Virus record (IMG/VR): IMGVR_UViG_3300022752_000250
Coordinates: 1 to 32,379 of that record
Length of the DNA: 32,379 nt
DNA from: a virus
Reading direction: 5' to 3' (one strand)
A model generated the notes under the pieces. That model was not told where the DNA came from and made no database searches. It worked only from the letters and a program-made list of their open reading frames with translations. Made by a program: the position numbers and the translations under genes. Below, in pieces: positions 4,475 to 17,182 of this stretch (position 1 is the first letter of the stretch; each line of letters opens with the position of its first letter).

Positions 4475-5440
4475 ATGCACATCGTTAGAAAGCCTGAGCA
4501 TGGCTCGGAGGAGTGGCTGCGTTTGCGATGGAGAGACTCGTCGGGGCGTTGCGTGTTCGGCGCATCGGAGGCGGCCTCGCTGATGGGGCAGAGCCCCTAT
4601 GTGAGCCGAGGCGACCTGTTCGCCTCTAAACGGAGCGAGCCGATGATCTCGGAGCAGACTGAGGCGTTCCGCCGAGGTCATGTTCTGGAGCCTGCGCTCC
4701 TCGCTGAGGCTGGGCGCATCCTCGGAGCAGAGGTCTCAACCCCGGGCGTTATGTATCGGGATGGGCGATGGATCGCGACACTCGATGGCATCGTTGGCTC
4801 GCCTGAGAAGCCAGAGGTCATCGTGGAGGCCAAGACAACCACTCGGTACTCGATCAGAGATGCCGAGGATCTCCCTGCCGAGTGGCTCTGGCAGACATGG
4901 GTTCAGGGCTCGCTCCTCGGCGCAGAGGTCTTCATCATGGCTTTAGATCGAGACCAACGGCTCTCGCTTACGAAGGTGCCGAGCAACCCTCAGGCGTGGG
5001 AGGCCCTGCTGACTGAGGCGGAGAGACTCGGCTCCTCCGTAGATGAGGGTCATCCCCTCGCCCCCGATGAGTTCAACTATGAGCAGATTACCGACCTGTG
5101 GAGGGCAACGCCCCGAGTCGCTGAGTTGCCGAACGAGGCGGCTCAGTGGCTCCATGTTCTAGTTGATGCGAGAGACCTGAAGGCGCAGGCAGAGACTCAG
5201 GAGAAACAGGCGAAGGATGCGCTCGCCCGGATGCTGCTGGATGCGGAGGTCGGAGTGCTGAACGGTCAGCAGGTCATCACATGGAAGGAGCAGGCTGGGA
5301 GAGCCTCGCTCGATGAGTCTCGGCTGCGGCAGGATCATCCTGATCTCTGCTCGGCGTATGAGAAACCGGGAAGGCCGTATCGCGTGATGCGAGTCTCCTC
5401 GGGCAAACCCACTAGGTCACGCAAGAAGGAGCAGTCATGA
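4475..5440 (+). CDS. YqaJ/lambda-type exonuclease (RecB-like nuclease fold)
   Basis: The 321-residue product matches the YqaJ viral recombinase family. It begins with the H-G-S-E-E-W-L-R-L-R motif (residues 9-18) and GASEAASLMG (29-38), then RGHVLEPAL, the metal-binding Asp104 in ATLDGI, the E-x-K pair Glu118/Lys120 in VEAKTTT, and a Gln140/Gln144 pair. These enzymes resect DNA 5' to 3' and feed a single-strand annealing protein. The C-terminal third (about 215-260) is a helical, coiled-coil-like extension. AAGGAGG sits eight bases before the ATG. The next gene starts in an ATGA overlap and is probably its recombination partner. Confidence 0.88.
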   Translation: MHIVRKPEHGSEEWLRLRWRDSSGRCVFGASEAASLMGQSPYVSRGDLFASKRSEPMISEQTEAFRRGHVLEPALLAEAGRILGAEVSTPGVMYRDGRWIATLDGIVGSPEKPEVIVEAKTTTRYSIRDAEDLPAEWLWQTWVQGSLLGAEVFIMALDRDQRLSLTKVPSNPQAWEALLTEAERLGSSVDEGHPLAPDEFNYEQITDLWRATPRVAELPNEAAQWLHVLVDARDLKAQAETQEKQAKDALARMLLDAEVGVLNGQQVITWKEQAGRASLDESRLRQDHPDLCSAYEKPGRPYRVMRVSSGKPTRSRKKEQS

Positions 5441-7230: not shown

Positions 7231-8601
7231 ATGGATGAGAGGCTCGGGGTCGTTTCGCTGTTCTCGGGAGTCGGAGGGATGGAACTCGGATTAGAGCGAG
7301 CAGGGATGCGCTCGGTGTATCAATGCGAGATAGACAAGAACTGCAGAGGAGTTCTGGAGCGTCATTGGCCCGGGCTCCCTCGATGGGATGATGTGCAGAC
7401 TCTCACAGGCCGTGAGATCATGTCTCGGGTAGATCGCGCCGATGTTGTGGCGTGGGGATCTCCATGCCAAGATCTCTCGTTCGCAGGCAAGAGGGCAGGT
7501 CTCTCGGGAGAGCGGTCATCGCTGTTCCACGAGGGTATGAGAGTCATCAGAGAAATCCGAGAGGAGACAAACAATGAGTATCCAAGAATCTCTATTTGGG
7601 AGAATGTGGCAGGAGCCCTCTCCTCCAACAAAGGGGCTGACTTCGGGGCAGTCCTCGACTCGATGGCTGAAGCAGGGGCGGTGGTCATCGAGTGGCGGAT
7701 GCTGGATGCACAATACTTCGGAATCCCCCAACGGCGTAGAAGAGTGTTCGTCGTCGCTGTCTTCGATCCTGCAGCCGCAGCAGGATGTGCCGATCCGCTA
7801 CTATCTCTCAGCGAAGGCCTGCGAGGGCATCCTGCGGAGGGCGGATCGCAGAGGGAAGGTTCTCCCGGAGAGACTGCGCCGAGCCCTAGAGGCAGGAATG
7901 AGGAGGGCGTGACCATCAACCTAGGGCCTCCAGCGGTCACGGTGCCGATCAACACCGCTCGCCCAACAGGCTCATCGGTCATCGGCTCGGAGATAGTCGC
8001 CAACCTCAACGCATCAGACTACAAATGGCCCCAGAATCAGCAACTCGATGAGAACAAGTTCGTCGTGTTTGAGAACTCGTATCGCGATGCTGCTCGGATC
8101 GCTGATGGAGTCACCAACACGCTCTCCGCCAAGATGGGAACAGGAGGCAACAACACTCCTATCGTCGCCTATGCGCTACAGGGCAACATGATCGGGCGAC
8201 AAGACCACAACGGGCCGAGAGGTCGAGGGCATGGAGAGGATGGCGATCCGATGTTCACGCTCACCTCTACTGATGTTCATGCGGTGGCGTTCTTGCCCGG
8301 GGCGATGGTCAGACAAGGGCTCCAGCCATACGAGGAGTTCGCTCCTCCTCTGCGAGCCGAGGATCATAACGGCGACAACGCCACTCACATTCAGCAGGCT
8401 GGGCTCATGGTGCGGAGACTGATGCCGATCGAGTGTGAACGGCTGATGGGATGGCCTGATGAGTGGACTCGCTGGAGAGCCGATGGCAAAGAGCAGGCAG
8501 ACACCGTGCGCTACAAACAGTGCGGCAACGGCGTAGCCTCCCCTGTGACTGAGTGGCTCGGCGGCATACTTGTTCGCCTGCTGGGAGGAGCCCGAGAGTG
8601 A
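7231..8601 (+). CDS. C5-cytosine DNA methyltransferase with internal target-recognition region
   Basis: This is a 456-residue protein with motif I (LFSGVGGMELGLERAG, about 10-25), the catalytic Cys79 in GSPCQDLSF, ENV (124-126), and QRRRRVFVV (167-175). After a long central region (about 180-400) come MGWPDEW and the terminal CGNGVASPV of motifs IX and X. It transfers a methyl group to C5 of cytosine in DNA. The central region, with YALQGNMIGRQDHNG and FTLTSTDVHA, is the variable target-recognition segment common in phage enzymes of this class. No restriction endonuclease partner is nearby, so protection of phage DNA is the likely role. Confidence 0.93.
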   Translation: MDERLGVVSLFSGVGGMELGLERAGMRSVYQCEIDKNCRGVLERHWPGLPRWDDVQTLTGREIMSRVDRADVVAWGSPCQDLSFAGKRAGLSGERSSLFHEGMRVIREIREETNNEYPRISIWENVAGALSSNKGADFGAVLDSMAEAGAVVIEWRMLDAQYFGIPQRRRRVFVVAVFDPAAAAGCADPLLSLSEGLRGHPAEGGSQREGSPGETAPSPRGRNEEGVTINLGPPAVTVPINTARPTGSSVIGSEIVANLNASDYKWPQNQQLDENKFVVFENSYRDAARIADGVTNTLSAKMGTGGNNTPIVAYALQGNMIGRQDHNGPRGRGHGEDGDPMFTLTSTDVHAVAFLPGAMVRQGLQPYEEFAPPLRAEDHNGDNATHIQQAGLMVRRLMPIECERLMGWPDEWTRWRADGKEQADTVRYKQCGNGVASPVTEWLGGILVRLLGGARE

Positions 8602-11250: not shown

Positions 11251-11486
11251 TGGCTCTCCGCTCCTATCCCTGCTCCTACTGCGAGCAGACCTTCCCATCA
11301 CCGCAGGCTCATCTCCATCATCTCGGAGAGGAGCATCGCTCCATCATCCAGAAGGCAGGCAGAGTGCCGAGGGAGCAGATGCTCCGCCGTTCCTGTTTCT
11401 GTTGGTCATGCGCCTCCGAGATAGCAGTCGGAGAGAGGCTCTGCTCATGCGGAGCAGTCTCCCCAGCGTTCCGAGGCAAGCCATGA
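11250..11486 (+). CDS. Small double zinc-finger protein
   Basis: This is a protein of 78 residues, TGATG-coupled to the gene before. The N-terminus reads as a C2H2-like finger (Cys8 and Cys11 in YPCSYCEQTF, then histidines in AHLHHLGEEH). The C-terminal half has a cysteine ribbon (CFCWSCASEIAVGERLCSCG). Both would bind zinc, giving a compact nucleic-acid or protein-binding adaptor. Its stop overlaps the start of the ArdA-like gene. Function is unknown; regulation of the downstream operon is one possibility. Confidence 0.65.
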   Translation: MALRSYPCSYCEQTFPSPQAHLHHLGEEHRSIIQKAGRVPREQMLRRSCFCWSCASEIAVGERLCSCGAVSPAFRGKP

Positions 11487-12091
11487 GGGCCTACATCGAG
11501 TGCCTCGGTTGCCGCAACGAGGGGAGGATGCACGGCAGGTGGCTCTCTCTGGAGCAGATAGAGGAGGAGACCGACCTCATCTCGGACTCGGAGGCGACTC
11601 CGCCCGGGAACTCGATCTACGGTGGTATCGCCACGATGGAGCCCTATCCCAACGGAGGGAGACTCGCCCCCCGATGCACCAAATGCTTCGGGGATGAGTT
11701 TGAGGTCTCCGACTCCGAGGGCATCCCAGCAGCCTCCAGCATCAGCATCCGCGATCTCTATGAGAACGCCGAACTGCTCCGCTCCCTAGAGGAGGATGAC
11801 TATCTCTGCGAGCGCATCACGGCAGTCTGCGCCAACTTTCACTATCCGCTCTCCTCTCTGGAGGAGGCCATCGCCTACGATGAGGATCACTATCGAGGTC
11901 ATCACGACTCGGTAGGGGATTTCGCCTTCTCCTATCTGGAGGATTGCACTCCCCATCATCTGCAGGAGGAGACTCTGCTCGGCAGACCTCTGCTGGATTG
12001 GCTGGATGGCGATGAGGTCTGGCGGTACACTCTGCAGTACGAGCATTGGCACGAGAGCAACAGCGAGGGGGTTCATGTATGGGCGAACTGA
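11483..12091 (+). CDS. ardA: ArdA-like antirestriction protein with zinc-ribbon insertion
   Basis: I start the gene at ATG 11483 (ATGA overlap); an upstream in-frame GTG at 11402 would overlap the previous gene. The 202-residue product follows the ArdA pattern. The N-terminus reads RAYIECLGCRNEGRMHGRWL (compare the family's V/I-A-x-L-x-x-Y-N-x-G...HG-x-W), then FEVSDSEG and a helical acidic domain with SLEEAIAYDEDHYRGHHDSV near the end. ArdA proteins mimic B-form DNA by surface acidity and block type I restriction enzymes. Two CxxC pairs (Cys7/Cys10 and Cys65/Cys68) and about 30 extra residues between them are not in the classical family and could bind zinc. Confidence 0.8.
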   Translation: MRAYIECLGCRNEGRMHGRWLSLEQIEEETDLISDSEATPPGNSIYGGIATMEPYPNGGRLAPRCTKCFGDEFEVSDSEGIPAASSISIRDLYENAELLRSLEEDDYLCERITAVCANFHYPLSSLEEAIAYDEDHYRGHHDSVGDFAFSYLEDCTPHHLQEETLLGRPLLDWLDGDEVWRYTLQYEHWHESNSEGVHVWAN

Positions 12092-12874: not shown

Positions 12875-13118
12875 TTTGCACTACCATAGAGCCGTGGCCC
12901 AAGAACAGGGGATTCATGCCGAGGCTCTGCGGATGGAGCGCGACGAACTAGCGCAGAGAGTCTCGGAACTATCGGCTGCTCTGGAGTTGCTCCGAGAGAA
13001 GGCGGAGATCGCGGAGGATGCAGCCGCATCTCTCCTCGCAGAACTCGATCATGCGAAACGGCAGAACTCAACGCTCCGGGCGCAGATCCAACGCATCAGA
13101 GAGACCTTCGACTCCTGA
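12855..13118 (+). CDS. Small coiled-coil protein
   Basis: This protein of 87 residues starts at GTG 12855, which stands seven bases after AGGAGG. From about residue 20 to 85 it is one long amphipathic helix (MERDELAQRVSELSAALELL, then LLAELDHAKRQNSTLRAQIQ), a typical two-stranded coiled coil. It is TGATG-coupled to the ParB-methyltransferase, so it may be an oligomerisation partner for that enzyme. That is inference from coupling. Confidence 0.6.
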   Translation: MTGSPDDLHYHRAVAQEQGIHAEALRMERDELAQRVSELSAALELLREKAEIAEDAAASLLAELDHAKRQNSTLRAQIQRIRETFDS

Positions 13119-14569
13119 TGGCTCGCATCATCTCAACGGAGCAGGTCGCTCTCAGCAGCATCTCTCCGCATCCCCGGAATGTTCGGCAGGGAGATGTTGG
13201 CGCGATCTCTCGCAGCCTCAAAGCGCACGGTCAGTATCGCCCGATAGTCGTGCAAGCCGGAACCGAACTCATCATCGCAGGCAACCACACCTACAAAGCG
13301 GCAAAGGCCCTCGGATGGAGCGAGATCATGGCGACTCTCGTGGAGTGCGATGATGATGAGGCCCTCCGCATCCTGCTCGCAGACAACAAGAGTTCCGACC
13401 TCGCCGCCTACGACGAATCGCAGTTAGCAGAACTGCTCCGGGAGATCGCAGCAACCTCCGCTGGGCTGGAGGGAACTCTCTACGATGGCGATGACCTCGA
13501 TCAGATAATCCACGACATAAACGCAGAAGCCACCGATGGGATGGCAGACAGTCTCTCAACAGGAAACATCATCGCACGGTTCGGCATCGCTCCGTTCTCC
13601 CTGCTGGATTGCCGCCGAGGCTGGTGGCGAGAACGGCGCAAGCGATGGCTCGATCTCGGCATCCTCTCAGAGGTCGGGAGAGATGGGAACCTGCTGCAGA
13701 TCTCCGACATGATCGCAGAGAAACAGGGCTTCGCAGTTCTCGGGGCCGAGGGCCGAGACAAGAATCTCCTACTGCCCAACAGCGCGATCTATCGCAACAA
13801 GAACCCGGAGACTCCGCAGTACACAGGAACCTCGGTCTTCGATCCTGTTCTCTGCGAGATTGCCTACAGGTGGTTCGCCCCGGCAGGCGGCCTCATCCTC
13901 GACCCTTTCGCAGGCGGCTCGGTGAGAGGCATCGTGGCCTCACAACTCGGGATGCATTACCGAGGGATCGAGTTGCGCCCGGAGCAGGTCGCAGCGAACC
14001 GTGAGCAGTTGGCGACCATCGGCTCCGGCTCAGGCTCAGCGGAGTGGACTCAGGGAGACTCTGCCGAGGTGCTGCAAACGCAGAACGCAGAGGATGGCGG
14101 CGAGGAGTTCGATCTCCTGTTCTCCTGCCCTCCGTACCACTCGCTGGAGGTTTACAGCGACCTCCCCGGCGATCTCTCCAACATCAAGGACTACGAGGAC
14201 TTTCTAGAAATCTACGAGCAGATTATCATCGCATCCTCGGCCCGACTGAAACAGAACAGGTTCGCAGTCTGGGTAATCTCCGAGATCAGGGATGGCGATG
14301 GAAACTACCGCAACTTCGTGGGCGACACCATCGCAGCATTCGAGGAGGCAGGTCTCTGCTACTACAACGAGGCCATCTACATCCAGCAGGCAGGCTCATG
14401 GCCTCTCCGCATCGGGCGAGTCTTCGGCGGCTCCCGTAAGATCGCCAGACTGCATCAGAATGTTCTCGTGTTCGCCAAAGGCGACCCGTTCGCCGCAGCA
14501 TCCGAGTTCGGAGAACCTGAGTGGGGCTTCGACAACGAACCCCAGATGCTCGCAGAGGAGCCGACCTGA
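13118..14569 (+). CDS. ParB-like domain fused to DNA methyltransferase
   Basis: This 483-residue protein has a ParB/sulfiredoxin-like domain at about 5-92 (ISPHPRNVRQGD, then AGNHTYKAAKALGW and LLADNK). A C-terminal class I methyltransferase domain carries DPFAGGS (262-268, AdoMet binding) and SCPPY (336-340, catalytic). The order and the CPPY motif place it among N6-adenine or N4-cytosine amino-methyltransferases of the beta-like class. Phage enzymes with this fusion are well known; the ParB part may bind DNA, hydrolyse CTP or nick DNA. The domain here keeps the basic residues but has NHTYKA in place of the canonical E-R-R-x-x-A. It heads a coupled modification cassette. Confidence 0.88.
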   Translation: MARIISTEQVALSSISPHPRNVRQGDVGAISRSLKAHGQYRPIVVQAGTELIIAGNHTYKAAKALGWSEIMATLVECDDDEALRILLADNKSSDLAAYDESQLAELLREIAATSAGLEGTLYDGDDLDQIIHDINAEATDGMADSLSTGNIIARFGIAPFSLLDCRRGWWRERRKRWLDLGILSEVGRDGNLLQISDMIAEKQGFAVLGAEGRDKNLLLPNSAIYRNKNPETPQYTGTSVFDPVLCEIAYRWFAPAGGLILDPFAGGSVRGIVASQLGMHYRGIELRPEQVAANREQLATIGSGSGSAEWTQGDSAEVLQTQNAEDGGEEFDLLFSCPPYHSLEVYSDLPGDLSNIKDYEDFLEIYEQIIIASSARLKQNRFAVWVISEIRDGDGNYRNFVGDTIAAFEEAGLCYYNEAIYIQQAGSWPLRIGRVFGGSRKIARLHQNVLVFAKGDPFAAASEFGEPEWGFDNEPQMLAEEPT

Positions 14570-15723
14570 TGAAGCCGTGGCAGCACGGCTTCGCTCTCGA
14601 TGAACTGAAATCGCTCCGGCAACTGTTCGCCAGATACGAGCCCTACTCGTTTGGCAGATTCGCAATCCCAGATGAGGCGCAGATCGCGCTCGCCCTCCAT
14701 CAGCAGGAGGCGGCCCTGCTCTACGCCGATGGCAAACCTGCAGGGCTGATGATCGGCAAAGTCGCCCAGAGAGACTCCATCCGCAAAGACTTCGTGGGCC
14801 GAGGGTTCCGGGTCAAACAGGGCGACTTCTGCATTGACCACCTCACCTATGTCGGAGACCTCCCTCCCTCCATCATTCAGGAGTATCTCCTGATCTACGC
14901 AGGGAACCGCTCTATCTGGGCGACCATCCACGCCGAGGATCGAGCCCGGATCAGACTCATGGAGCATCTCGGCTTCGCCGTTGTCGGATCAAAGATTGCG
15001 GCAGGCTCCGAGATTTACTCCATCCTGCTCCGCTCCAATAGGCCAGCCATCCGCCTCCCCGAGCCTCTCGATCCAGCGCATCGGCCCACGCTCGCCCGAC
15101 TCTCTCCGGCATGGATAACGCCCGGGGAGACTGCGAGCATCATCTCCGAGATCGAGACCTCTCAAGCGGAGTGGGCAGACCACTACTCCTCCTACAACCT
15201 GCGGAAGTCGTGGTCAGCGATCAGCCTTCGAGGCTTCTCCGATGACCCCTCCTTCATCATCAAGCCTGCAGAGATGAGCCGTAAGTGGAAGGCGGAGAAC
15301 CCGGAGATGCTCGCCGCCGAGGTCAGGGATACCGCCATGTTCCAGCGGTTCCCGACAGTGAGAGAAATCTGCCAGAGATCAGGGCTGCAGTTTCAGCGCA
15401 TCCGCCTGATGAGGGTCAGGGCAGGCGATGGAGCCCTCTCTCGACACGCCGACATAATAGACAGAGAGGCAGGGCCGCTCCCCGGGCAGATCAGCAGACT
15501 GCACATACCCATCATCTCCGACCCCTGCTGCAGGTTCATGGCATGGAACCTCTCGGGGGAGATGATCTCCCATCATCTCGCTCCGGGCTCGCTCTGGTAT
15601 CTCGACACTCGGAAGCCTCACGCAGTCACCAACGAGGGCTCTACCTCTGATCGCATCCACCTTGTGCTGGATGCCATCTCCGACCCCATCCTCCGCGAGG
15701 CCATCGCTAGAGCAGAGACATGA
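14569..15723 (+). CDS. Fusion of GNAT-like domain and AspH-type 2-oxoglutarate/Fe(II) oxygenase
   Basis: I place the start at ATG 14569 (TGATG overlap with the methyltransferase). The 384-residue product has two parts. Residues about 1-155 resemble a divergent GNAT fold, including DFCIDHLTYV and a C-terminal core IWATIHAEDRARIRLMEHLG then FAVVG. Residues about 250-375 are an aspartyl/asparaginyl hydroxylase-like jelly roll: SRHAD (likely Fe ligands His293 and Asp295), LHIPI, PGSLWYLDTRKPH (His351), and DRIHLVLD (Arg362 for 2-oxoglutarate). The second part is the surer. Sitting between two methyltransferases, it may elaborate a base; a protein substrate is the alternative. Confidence 0.72.
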   Translation: MKPWQHGFALDELKSLRQLFARYEPYSFGRFAIPDEAQIALALHQQEAALLYADGKPAGLMIGKVAQRDSIRKDFVGRGFRVKQGDFCIDHLTYVGDLPPSIIQEYLLIYAGNRSIWATIHAEDRARIRLMEHLGFAVVGSKIAAGSEIYSILLRSNRPAIRLPEPLDPAHRPTLARLSPAWITPGETASIISEIETSQAEWADHYSSYNLRKSWSAISLRGFSDDPSFIIKPAEMSRKWKAENPEMLAAEVRDTAMFQRFPTVREICQRSGLQFQRIRLMRVRAGDGALSRHADIIDREAGPLPGQISRLHIPIISDPCCRFMAWNLSGEMISHHLAPGSLWYLDTRKPHAVTNEGSTSDRIHLVLDAISDPILREAIARAET

Positions 15724-16382
15724 GGAGGCTGCTCATCCTCGACCTGTTCTCAGGAACAGGCTCCAGCACTCAGGCCTTCCACGACGCTGGGCATACTGTC
15801 GTTCGAGTTGAACTCAACCCCGAGTTTGAGGCGACCCTGCTCATGAGCGTTCTCGATCTCACAGCCGAGATGATCCTCAGCCGATGGGGCCGCCCCGACT
15901 TCATCTGGGCATCGCCTCCCTGCACAGCGTTCTCAGTCTCCTCCATCTCCCACCATTGGGATAACAGCAGCGGCTCGCCTCAGCCTCGCACCGAGGCCGC
16001 AATCCATAATCAGGAACTCGTGCGCCATACCGTCGCCCTCATCAGAGACCTCAGCCCCCCGGGCGGATGGCTGATTGAGAACCCCAGAGGGATGCTCCGC
16101 AAACTCCCACCCGTTCAAGGACTGCCTCGGCGCACCGTCACCTACTGCCAATACGGAGATACGAGGATGAAGCCAACAGACCTCTGGGGAGAGGTCATCG
16201 GCTGGGAACCTAAGCCGCCATGCAACAAAGGAGACCCCTGCCATGAGGCCGCTCCGCGAGGATCGAGAACGGGAACGCAGGGCATCGCATCAGCCAAAGA
16301 CAAGGCGAGGGTTCCCTACGGCCTCGGGCTGGAACTGCTCCGGGCTCTGGAGCCCTCCGTTCGCTACCCTGAGAGCGCATGA
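15720..16382 (+). CDS. Short C5-cytosine-methyltransferase-like protein
   Basis: The 220-residue product contains a motif I-like DLFSGTGSSTQAF (8-20), SPPCTAFS (65-72) with candidate catalytic Cys68, and ENPRG (120-124) where ENV is typical. RRTVTYCQYGDTRMKPTDLW follows. There is no target-recognition insertion and no clear motif IX/X block, so it is about half the size of normal enzymes. This compact family is widespread in actinophages and is annotated as DNA methylase, but its true reaction is unproven; it may use a partner for target choice. It is ATGA-coupled at both ends within the modification cassette. Confidence 0.75.
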   Translation: MRRLLILDLFSGTGSSTQAFHDAGHTVVRVELNPEFEATLLMSVLDLTAEMILSRWGRPDFIWASPPCTAFSVSSISHHWDNSSGSPQPRTEAAIHNQELVRHTVALIRDLSPPGGWLIENPRGMLRKLPPVQGLPRRTVTYCQYGDTRMKPTDLWGEVIGWEPKPPCNKGDPCHEAAPRGSRTGTQGIASAKDKARVPYGLGLELLRALEPSVRYPESA

Positions 16383-17182
16383 CTGATCGGTTTATCTCCT
16401 ACGGTGGAGGAGTTCAAAGCACAGCCCTGATAGTCCTTGCAGTGCAAGGCCGAATCCCGAAGGTTGATGCAGCGTTGTTCTGCAACACAGGCGATGACTC
16501 TGAGCATCCTGCAACCCTTCGTTTCGTTAGAGAGGTTATGATGCCCTACGCCAGCAGTCACGGGCTGCCGATTCACGAGATTCAGCGAGTGACGAAAGGC
16601 AAGTCACAGACGCTATGGGATCGGATGATGAACCATGAGAGAGACAGTCTCTCGGAGCCAATCCCCGTGTATGGCTGGAAGGGTGCGCCAATGTCACGAG
16701 CGTGCACCGTAGATCACAAGATTCTGGTGTTGAAACGATGGATCAAGCAGAACTGTGTAACTCTGCCTGCACAAACCCTTGTTGGTATCTCGGTTGATGA
16801 GATAGAGCGAGCGAAACTCGGTGAGTCTGACTATGAGATTCGGACTTACCCTTTGTTGGATTTAGGAATGACTCGTGCCGACTGCGCCGCCGTCATCAGA
16901 GAGGCAGGTCTCCCCGTTCCTCCTAAGTCATCATGCTTCTTCTGCCCGTTCCACTCGTTGCTTACTTGGTCGGAACTAAGACGTGATGAACCCGAGTTGT
17001 TCGAGAAGGCAGCACAACTTGAGGATGTGCTGATTCAACGGCGACTAAACCGCAATCAACCACCTGTGCATTTGACCCGAAAGCAACTGCCGTTGCGTGA
17101 GGCAATCCCAATCGCTCAAGACTCTCTATTCCACTCCGATGAGATGGAAGGCCAATGTGATGGTGGAGTTTGTTTCGTATGA
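16379..17182 (+). CDS. PP-loop ATPase of the PAPS reductase / DndC-like superfamily
   Basis: This is a 267-residue protein. SYGGGVQST (7-15) is the PP-loop that binds ATP pyrophosphate; CNTGDDSEHP (35-44) is the second nucleotide-binding element. Cysteines at 109 (SRACTVDHKI), 186 and 189 (SSCFFCPF), plus 260 and 265 near the C-terminus, could hold an iron-sulfur cluster or zinc. Members adenylate or thiolate substrates, for example in sulfate reduction, tRNA thiolation and DNA phosphorothioation. No DndD/E or cysteine desulfurase is present. Codon use is distinctly more AT-rich (GTT, TTG, CTT, ATT) than neighbours, suggesting later acquisition. Confidence 0.8.
   Translation: MTDRFISYGGGVQSTALIVLAVQGRIPKVDAALFCNTGDDSEHPATLRFVREVMMPYASSHGLPIHEIQRVTKGKSQTLWDRMMNHERDSLSEPIPVYGWKGAPMSRACTVDHKILVLKRWIKQNCVTLPAQTLVGISVDEIERAKLGESDYEIRTYPLLDLGMTRADCAAVIREAGLPVPPKSSCFFCPFHSLLTWSELRRDEPELFEKAAQLEDVLIQRRLNRNQPPVHLTRKQLPLREAIPIAQDSLFHSDEMEGQCDGGVCFV

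Follow-up and report, generated by a model that had tools for sequence, protein, structure and literature searches.

What does a phage do with a protein in which a GNAT-like fold is joined to an AspH-type hydroxylase, and how does that protein relate to the DNA methyltransferase encoded directly ahead of it? The question is raised by a viral DNA of 32,379 bases (IMG/VR record IMGVR_UViG_3300022752_000250, which may be a fragment; the whole stretch is called the window below), in which a ParB-domain methyltransferase gene (gene 1) is followed by the gene of such a fusion protein (gene 2) and by two further genes (3 and 4). A sequence-only reading of the four genes had proposed a stepwise DNA-hypermodification pathway that starts from a methylated base. 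We find that relatives of the fusion belong to a conserved module consisting of an amino-type DNA methyltransferase, the GNAT-AspH fusion and a PALP-fold pyridoxal phosphate (PLP) enzyme, the last being encoded near the fusion in 76 of 85 loci. It is probable that the products of genes 1 and 2 are parts of a phage DNA-hypermodification module of which the PALP enzyme is the usual third part. The four genes lie as follows.

13118-14569, + strand: gene 1, ParB-domain and amino-type (N4/N6) DNA methyltransferase, 483 residues (PF02195, PF01555; phrog_498, 1.9e-103)
14569-15723, + strand: gene 2, fusion of a GNAT fold and an AspH-type Fe(II)/2-oxoglutarate hydroxylase, 384 residues (AlphaFold2, fold searches)
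15720-16382, + strand: gene 3, short C5-cytosine methyltransferase-like protein, 220 residues (PF00145, 6.4e-5; phrog_757, 9.7e-33)
16379-17182, + strand: gene 4, PP-loop ATPase, like 3'-phosphoadenosine-5'-phosphosulfate (PAPS) reductase and SspD, 267 residues (phrog_424, 5.8e-38)

The four open reading frames, their junctions (TGATG between genes 1 and 2, ATGA between genes 2 and 3 and between genes 3 and 4) and the motifs named in the sequence-only reading are all present where it had placed them. The start codon of gene 2 is the ATG at 14569; a GTG in the same frame, at 14521, falls within gene 1.

A GNAT fold joined to a predicted AspH-type hydroxylase

The AlphaFold2 model of the full-length gene 2 product, built from an alignment with 40 relatives, has a mean predicted local distance difference test score (pLDDT) of 93.8 and a predicted template-modelling score of 0.89. 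Its parts are:

14569-15054, + strand: N-terminal domain with a GNAT fold, residues 1-162, in which the canonical [RQ]xxGx[GA] acyl-coenzyme A (CoA) loop is missing
15067-15699, + strand: AspH/proline-hydroxylase domain, residues about 167-377 (PF05118)
15445-15447, 15451-15453, 15619-15621 and 15652-15654, + strand: catalytic codons of H293, D295, H351 and R362, respectively

The hydroxylase domain dominates the fold-search list of the full-length model, with no GNAT among the matches listed, and the N-terminal domain was therefore folded separately. Modelled in this way (pLDDT 92.3), residues 1-162 retrieved only GNAT-type acetyltransferases among the 50 matches listed (best Z 12.7), which places the domain in the GNAT superfamily by fold. 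The GNAT-like fold suggested by the sequence-only reading is thus borne out; with Mom of phage Mu, no sequence kinship was detectable (hhalign probability 0.9%, 23 columns). The canonical pyrophosphate-binding loop after beta4 was found in none of the 40 sequences of the fusion family. With neither the CoA loop motif nor kinship to Mom, acyl transfer by this domain can be proposed only tentatively.

The C-terminal domain was recognized by PF05118 (Asp_Arg_Hydrox; E=3e-6, 27.6 bits against a cut-off of 22.6), a family also matched by 39 of the 40 relatives at E-values up to 0.5. Its metal ligands H293-x-D295 and H351 and the 2-oxoglutarate-binding R362 are invariant in all 40. The best solved match in the fold search was L-proline cis-4-hydroxylase (4p7x, Z 16.4), followed by human AspH (Z 16.0), with a nucleoside-antibiotic hydroxylase also matched, and a profile search returned 4p7w at 2.6e-11. 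The domain combines a double-stranded beta-helix with the HxD...H and Arg residues of this enzyme class, and it is nearest to hydroxylases of free amino acids rather than to TET/JBP or AlkB. The models, the fold searches, the Pfam match and the invariant residues agree that gene 2 encodes a GNAT fold joined to a predicted AspH-type hydroxylase, confirming the fusion first proposed from the letters of the DNA. Its best viral structure match, over the whole length, is gp4 of phage LilMcDreamy (template-modelling score 0.85).

The company kept by the fusion

A profile of the fusion retrieved 308 relatives in IMG/VR viruses but, from 84,980 prokaryote genomes, only two, each on a short contig of a metagenome-assembled genome; the viral and prokaryote scans used different peptide patterns. 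We counted neighbours in 85 loci, excluding the distant AspH matches in L008 and L009. In 73 of the 85, PALP follows the fusion immediately and the two reading frames overlap. An amino-type DNA methyltransferase was found near the fusion in 46 of the 47 loci that extend 5 kb or more downstream; it belongs to the main methyltransferase cluster in 44, is part of a fusion in L044 and comes from another subfamily in L005. Homologues consistently lying away from methyltransferases, which the sequence-only reading had named as a sign against it, are therefore not what the neighbourhoods contain. With F for the fusion, P for PALP and M for the methyltransferase, the gene orders are FP..M, MFP, FPM, FM and MF. 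T4-like phages have fusion-PALP-(...)-methyltransferase and relatives of the window have methyltransferase-fusion-PALP; the partners keep together across two or more distinct genomic backgrounds and orders.

The single locus of the 47 that lacks a nearby amino-type methyltransferase is that of LilMcDreamy. Just ahead of its terminase genes, this phage encodes a ParB protein that has no methyltransferase domain, a Tet_JBP-like protein (a weak match, E=0.0022), an amino acid:DNA transferase (ADDT; PF18724, E=2.7e-12) and the fusion. Judged by these matches, a TET/JBP-like oxygenase and an ADDT appear to stand in for the methyltransferase, and these neighbours link the fusion to base hypermodification by a second and distinct way of activating the base. 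The weakly Tet_JBP-matching protein is gp2 (L007 855-1787), which adjoins the ADDT and is called 'queuine tRNA-ribosyltransferase' in RefSeq, a label that is probably wrong.

Side chains of proteins are the substrates of classic AspH, and free amino acids those of its relatives; the fusion might accordingly modify a host or phage protein, a free amino acid or a small metabolite, in which case its methyltransferase neighbours would be coincidental or serve some other anti-restriction purpose. Phage PfAn1 offers some precedent, as its stand-alone AspH, a distant relative, is encoded among virion genes; the 'acetyltransferase' beside it, which precedes internal virion protein genes, was set aside as a split version of the fusion. 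Three observations make this explanation very unlikely: the co-occurrence with methyltransferases across differing backgrounds and orders, the TET/ADDT partners in LilMcDreamy, and a physical fusion in L044, where ParB, methyltransferase, GNAT and AspH domains form a single 918-residue frame.

The methyltransferase and its sister clade

Gene 1 carries the S-adenosylmethionine (SAM) motif I, the xPPY motif and the Pfam domain of an amino-type (N4/N6) DNA methyltransferase (PF01555, N6_N4_Mtase, E=3.9e-8, 33.9 bits against a cut-off of 26.7), together with a ParB_N domain above its cut-off (PF02195, E=1.1e-6). Fusions of ParB with N6/N4 methyltransferases are frequent in phages and their role is unknown (PMC12704722).

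13901-13930, + strand: motif I of gene 1, DPFAGGSVRG (GR type)
14123-14137, + strand: motif IV of gene 1, SCPPY

We surveyed about 180 methyltransferases from loci that were gathered partly by motif pattern, which affects the counts per type and not the neighbours. In a tree of 180 sequences, gene 1 falls in the GR group, and 81 sequences with the motif I DxFAGD[ST]VFG form a monophyletic sister clade (support 1.0). A SAM decarboxylase accompanies 63 of these 81, as the next gene in 61 and mostly in overlapping frames, and neither PALP nor the fusion was found with any of them. Among the remaining 99 methyltransferases (DPFAGGxxRG, the window included) the partners are reversed, with SAM decarboxylase in none, PALP in 33 and the fusion in 20. 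The isolate phages ZRG1 and P2559S also have a SAM decarboxylase gene overlapping the ParB-methyltransferase gene (PF02675, 1.6e-23 and 2.1e-19).

The amino-acid arm is all that distinguishes decarboxylated SAM from SAM; the simplest reading of this partnership is thus that the arm matters and that the sister clade uses an aminopropyl donor. An arginine conserved in the GR group could hold the carboxylate of SAM. Loci in which a DxFAGD[ST]VFG methyltransferase gene is followed by an overlapping SAM decarboxylase gene include L103 (2399-4241), L097 (4512-6150) and about 60 among L108-L187; for these, aminopropylation of phage DNA is predicted.

The PALP enzyme

PALP also occurs inside the methyltransferase itself. 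A PALP domain lies within the ParB-methyltransferase of Erythrobacter phages R6L and ZS04, between motif I and SCPPY, and the same site is occupied in Pseudanabaena phage Pam4 by one from a different subfamily. Methyltransferase and PALP are encoded by adjoining genes in Microcystis phage Mae-JY30 and in mycobacteriophage Vincenzo, whose PALP protein bears the annotation 'carboxylate deaminase'. All aligned PALP proteins share the PLP-lysine context RDDLxxGxKxR, and weak matches link them to dehydratase, 1-aminocyclopropane-1-carboxylate (ACC) deaminase and tryptophan-synthase-like enzymes. The subfamily of this module was found in 3 of 50,697 isolate phage records.

Beta-replacement is the reaction by which tryptophan synthase and willardiine-type synthases use serine derivatives, and PALP might in the same manner supply the amino acid by placing an alanyl group on a base that the methyltransferase has activated or methylated, with hydroxylation and acylation by the fusion to follow. 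This would suit an enzyme that is the closest partner of the fusion, is inserted into methyltransferases, keeps its PLP-lysine context and weakly matches enzymes of the kinds just named. It leaves unexplained the SAM decarboxylase of the sister clade, as well as the loci, the window among them, that have fusion and methyltransferase and no adjacent PALP. We regard such a supply role as unlikely.

A proposed route to a tailored base

That the module performs DNA-base tailoring is likely, and the chances that the tailored base carries an amino acid are about even. PALP, AspH-type and GNAT enzymes typically have amino acids or amines as substrates, and the arm of SAM is an amino acid at hand, which is why transfer of the 3-amino-3-carboxypropyl group is the version that we favour, as a tentative choice. 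What we infer of the chemistry, the base, the order of steps and the biological role runs as follows. The ParB-methyltransferase would act on an exocyclic amine (N4 of cytosine or N6 of adenine) of phage DNA, leaving the base with an alpha-amino-acid group, in the favoured version the 3-amino-3-carboxypropyl arm of SAM and not a methyl group. PALP, where present, would rearrange the base-linked amino acid, the AspH domain would hydroxylate it, and the GNAT domain would bind or acylate its amine; the modified product would shield phage DNA from restriction. More generally, we hypothesize, at a similarly low level of confidence, that the ParB-methyltransferase family does more than methylate and transfers the SAM arm to DNA bases, as aminopropyl where a SAM decarboxylase is present, and that PALP and the GNAT-AspH fusion make hydroxylated and acylated derivatives, which would give environmental phages a class of DNA decorated with amino acids.

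Several points weigh against this proposal. The GNAT domain, without its usual CoA-binding loop, may be non-catalytic. The bulk of the 85 loci come from one T4-like background and their counts are not independent; in L051, L066, L072 and L074 the methyltransferase comes straight after the fusion with no PALP between, and no credible PALP match was found in the window. TET and ADDT homologues were found neither in the other fusion loci nor among the scanned open reading frames of the window, itself a fragment. The four-domain fusion of L044 is one instance. The motif switch between the two methyltransferase clades is a single evolutionary event, and the link to SAM decarboxylase therefore counts once at clade level. 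Finally, 62 of the 99 GR-type loci have no recognized tailoring partner, and plain methylation is therefore possible for this family.

The last point bears on the methylated-base start of the sequence-only reading, taken here as an N-methyl or C5-methyl base that AspH would hydroxylate to a hydroxymethyl handle for the GNAT or PP-loop protein to elaborate. The methyltransferase motifs are intact, a TET-like oxygenase is part of the LilMcDreamy context, and partnerless loci are what plain methylases would have. Against this, the hydroxylase domain lies nearest the amino-acid hydroxylases and not TET/JBP or AlkB, LilMcDreamy already has a TET-like gene of its own, and genes 3 and 4 are a separate insertion. 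We found no evidence supporting a methylated-base start, which we consider distinctly unlikely; the SAM decarboxylase link of the sister clade points instead to transfer of the SAM arm. What stands of the hypermodification pathway is that relatives of the fusion adjoin, or are fused with, DNA-modification enzymes; the four-step sequence does not.

If a methyltransferase, a PLP enzyme and a GNAT-hydroxylase fusion do act together as proposed, such a DNA-hypermodification module is present in hundreds of phages from the environment, many of which are T4-like. It would then bring base chemistry and DNA-active enzymes that are both new, and would allow transfer of the SAM amino-acid arm to DNA to be tested directly. 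The isolated phages LilMcDreamy, Vincenzo, R6L, ZRG1 and P2559S make it open to mass spectrometry.

Genes 3 and 4 as an inserted pair

The four genes had been taken as one coupled cassette, a view that the nearest relative contradicts. In L002, which is 90% identical, the ParB-methyltransferase and the fusion are followed directly by the small open reading frame found at 17179 in the window. The DNA alignment of the two runs to 15725 and restarts at 17179, which identifies genes 3 and 4 as an inserted pair.

15726-17178, + strand: inserted stretch of about 1.45 kb with two genes, missing from L002 (pairwise DNA alignment)

We rejected the four-gene order as a conserved unit, as the pair is missing from L002 and lies outside the module of the relatives. 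The stop-start overlaps were likewise rejected as evidence of a pathway, since such overlaps are ordinary throughout the window (others are at 5437, 6093, 11250, 13118, 17179, 21863, 24923 and 25522). On this reading genes 3 and 4 are a later, separate insertion, possibly adding another modification.

Gene 4 has a GC content of 0.519 (0.534 at third codon positions) against about 0.60 and 0.72 around it. Gene 3 contains SPPC and ENPRG, with a weak Pfam match to C5 DNA_methylase. Gene 4 contains SYGGGVQST and CxxC; its Pfam PAPS_reduct match is below threshold, and residues 7-217 match the PADLOC SspD model at 1.7e-15. It also resembles a solved structure named PptA (21fy_C, E=1.6e-4), a resemblance that could not be interpreted. 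None of the Ssp or Dnd partners (SspA/B/C, DndA/D/E) was found among the 15 window proteins scanned, the contig being a fragment. Gene 4 is echoed in R6L and ZS04, where a PP-loop gene resembling PAPS reductase (L091 1254-2456, L093 1-939) is located no more than about 3 kb from the ParB-methyltransferase-PALP gene.

Relation to known systems

In one recently described phage system, a C5-methyltransferase homologue draws on carboxy-SAM to provide a handle to which glycine is ligated (PMC12783734). This CmoA/CmoX/CmoY carboxymethylcytosine pathway resembles our proposal in that a SAM-derived group larger than a methyl is placed on DNA by a methyltransferase homologue and then elaborated by a tailoring enzyme (PMC12783734). 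It differs in combining a C5-methyltransferase with carboxy-SAM, in place of an amino-type enzyme with PALP and the fusion or with SAM decarboxylase; no CmoA or CmoY homologue was recognized here, although no search was aimed at them. Thymidine hypermodification of the M6 and ViI type (hydroxymethyl base, DNA kinase, ADDT) follows the same logic, in which a handle is first made on the base and amino-acid tailoring comes next, and LilMcDreamy has an ADDT and a TET/JBP-like protein beside the fusion. Neither TET nor ADDT was found in the window or in most relatives, which have an amino-type methyltransferase, usually with PALP, instead.

Mom of phage Mu, a GNAT-family enzyme of adenine modification, likewise ties this fold to phage DNA modification, but here the fold is joined to AspH and has no detectable sequence relation to Mom. 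L-proline cis-4-hydroxylase and AspH (PF05118) share fold and catalytic residues with the C-terminal domain of the fusion, which unlike them is joined to a GNAT fold, lies beside DNA methyltransferases and is found almost only in viruses. Gene 4 resembles the phosphorothioation PP-loop ATPases SspD and DndC through its SspD match, but lies within an insertion and without another Ssp/Dnd component among the scanned window proteins.

In the literature searched, which did not cover Iyer 2013 and the pathway papers, we met with neither the GNAT-AspH fusion nor the three-gene module. The module is real and widespread, and apparently undescribed in that literature, Iyer 2013 again lying outside it; that work reportedly treats bases made with modified SAM derivatives and may include the SAM-decarboxylase part.

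Neighbouring genes and other loci

The window terminase is closest to terminases of actinobacterial phages, a hint of an actinobacterial host. A full-length C5 DNA methyltransferase, distinct from the short gene 3, is encoded at 7231-8601 (PF00145, 8.8e-46), and an ArdA-like antirestriction protein at 11402-12091 (PF07275, E=4.4e-11), whose presence indicates that the phage has several anti-restriction functions.

Elsewhere, L006 (8706-9158) and L073 (8118-8588) each have an additional small GNAT-like gene, separate from the fusion, a short way downstream of its locus. The distant AspH homologue of L009 belongs to Limnohabitans phage DC33, which at 39 kb is classed in the Inoviridae, a classification that looks doubtful. 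Two T4-like viral contigs encode a tryptophan halogenase (L069 967-2427, PF04820, 2.5e-86; L052 1699-3171) close to JmjC-like and other oxygenase genes and to the fusion locus.

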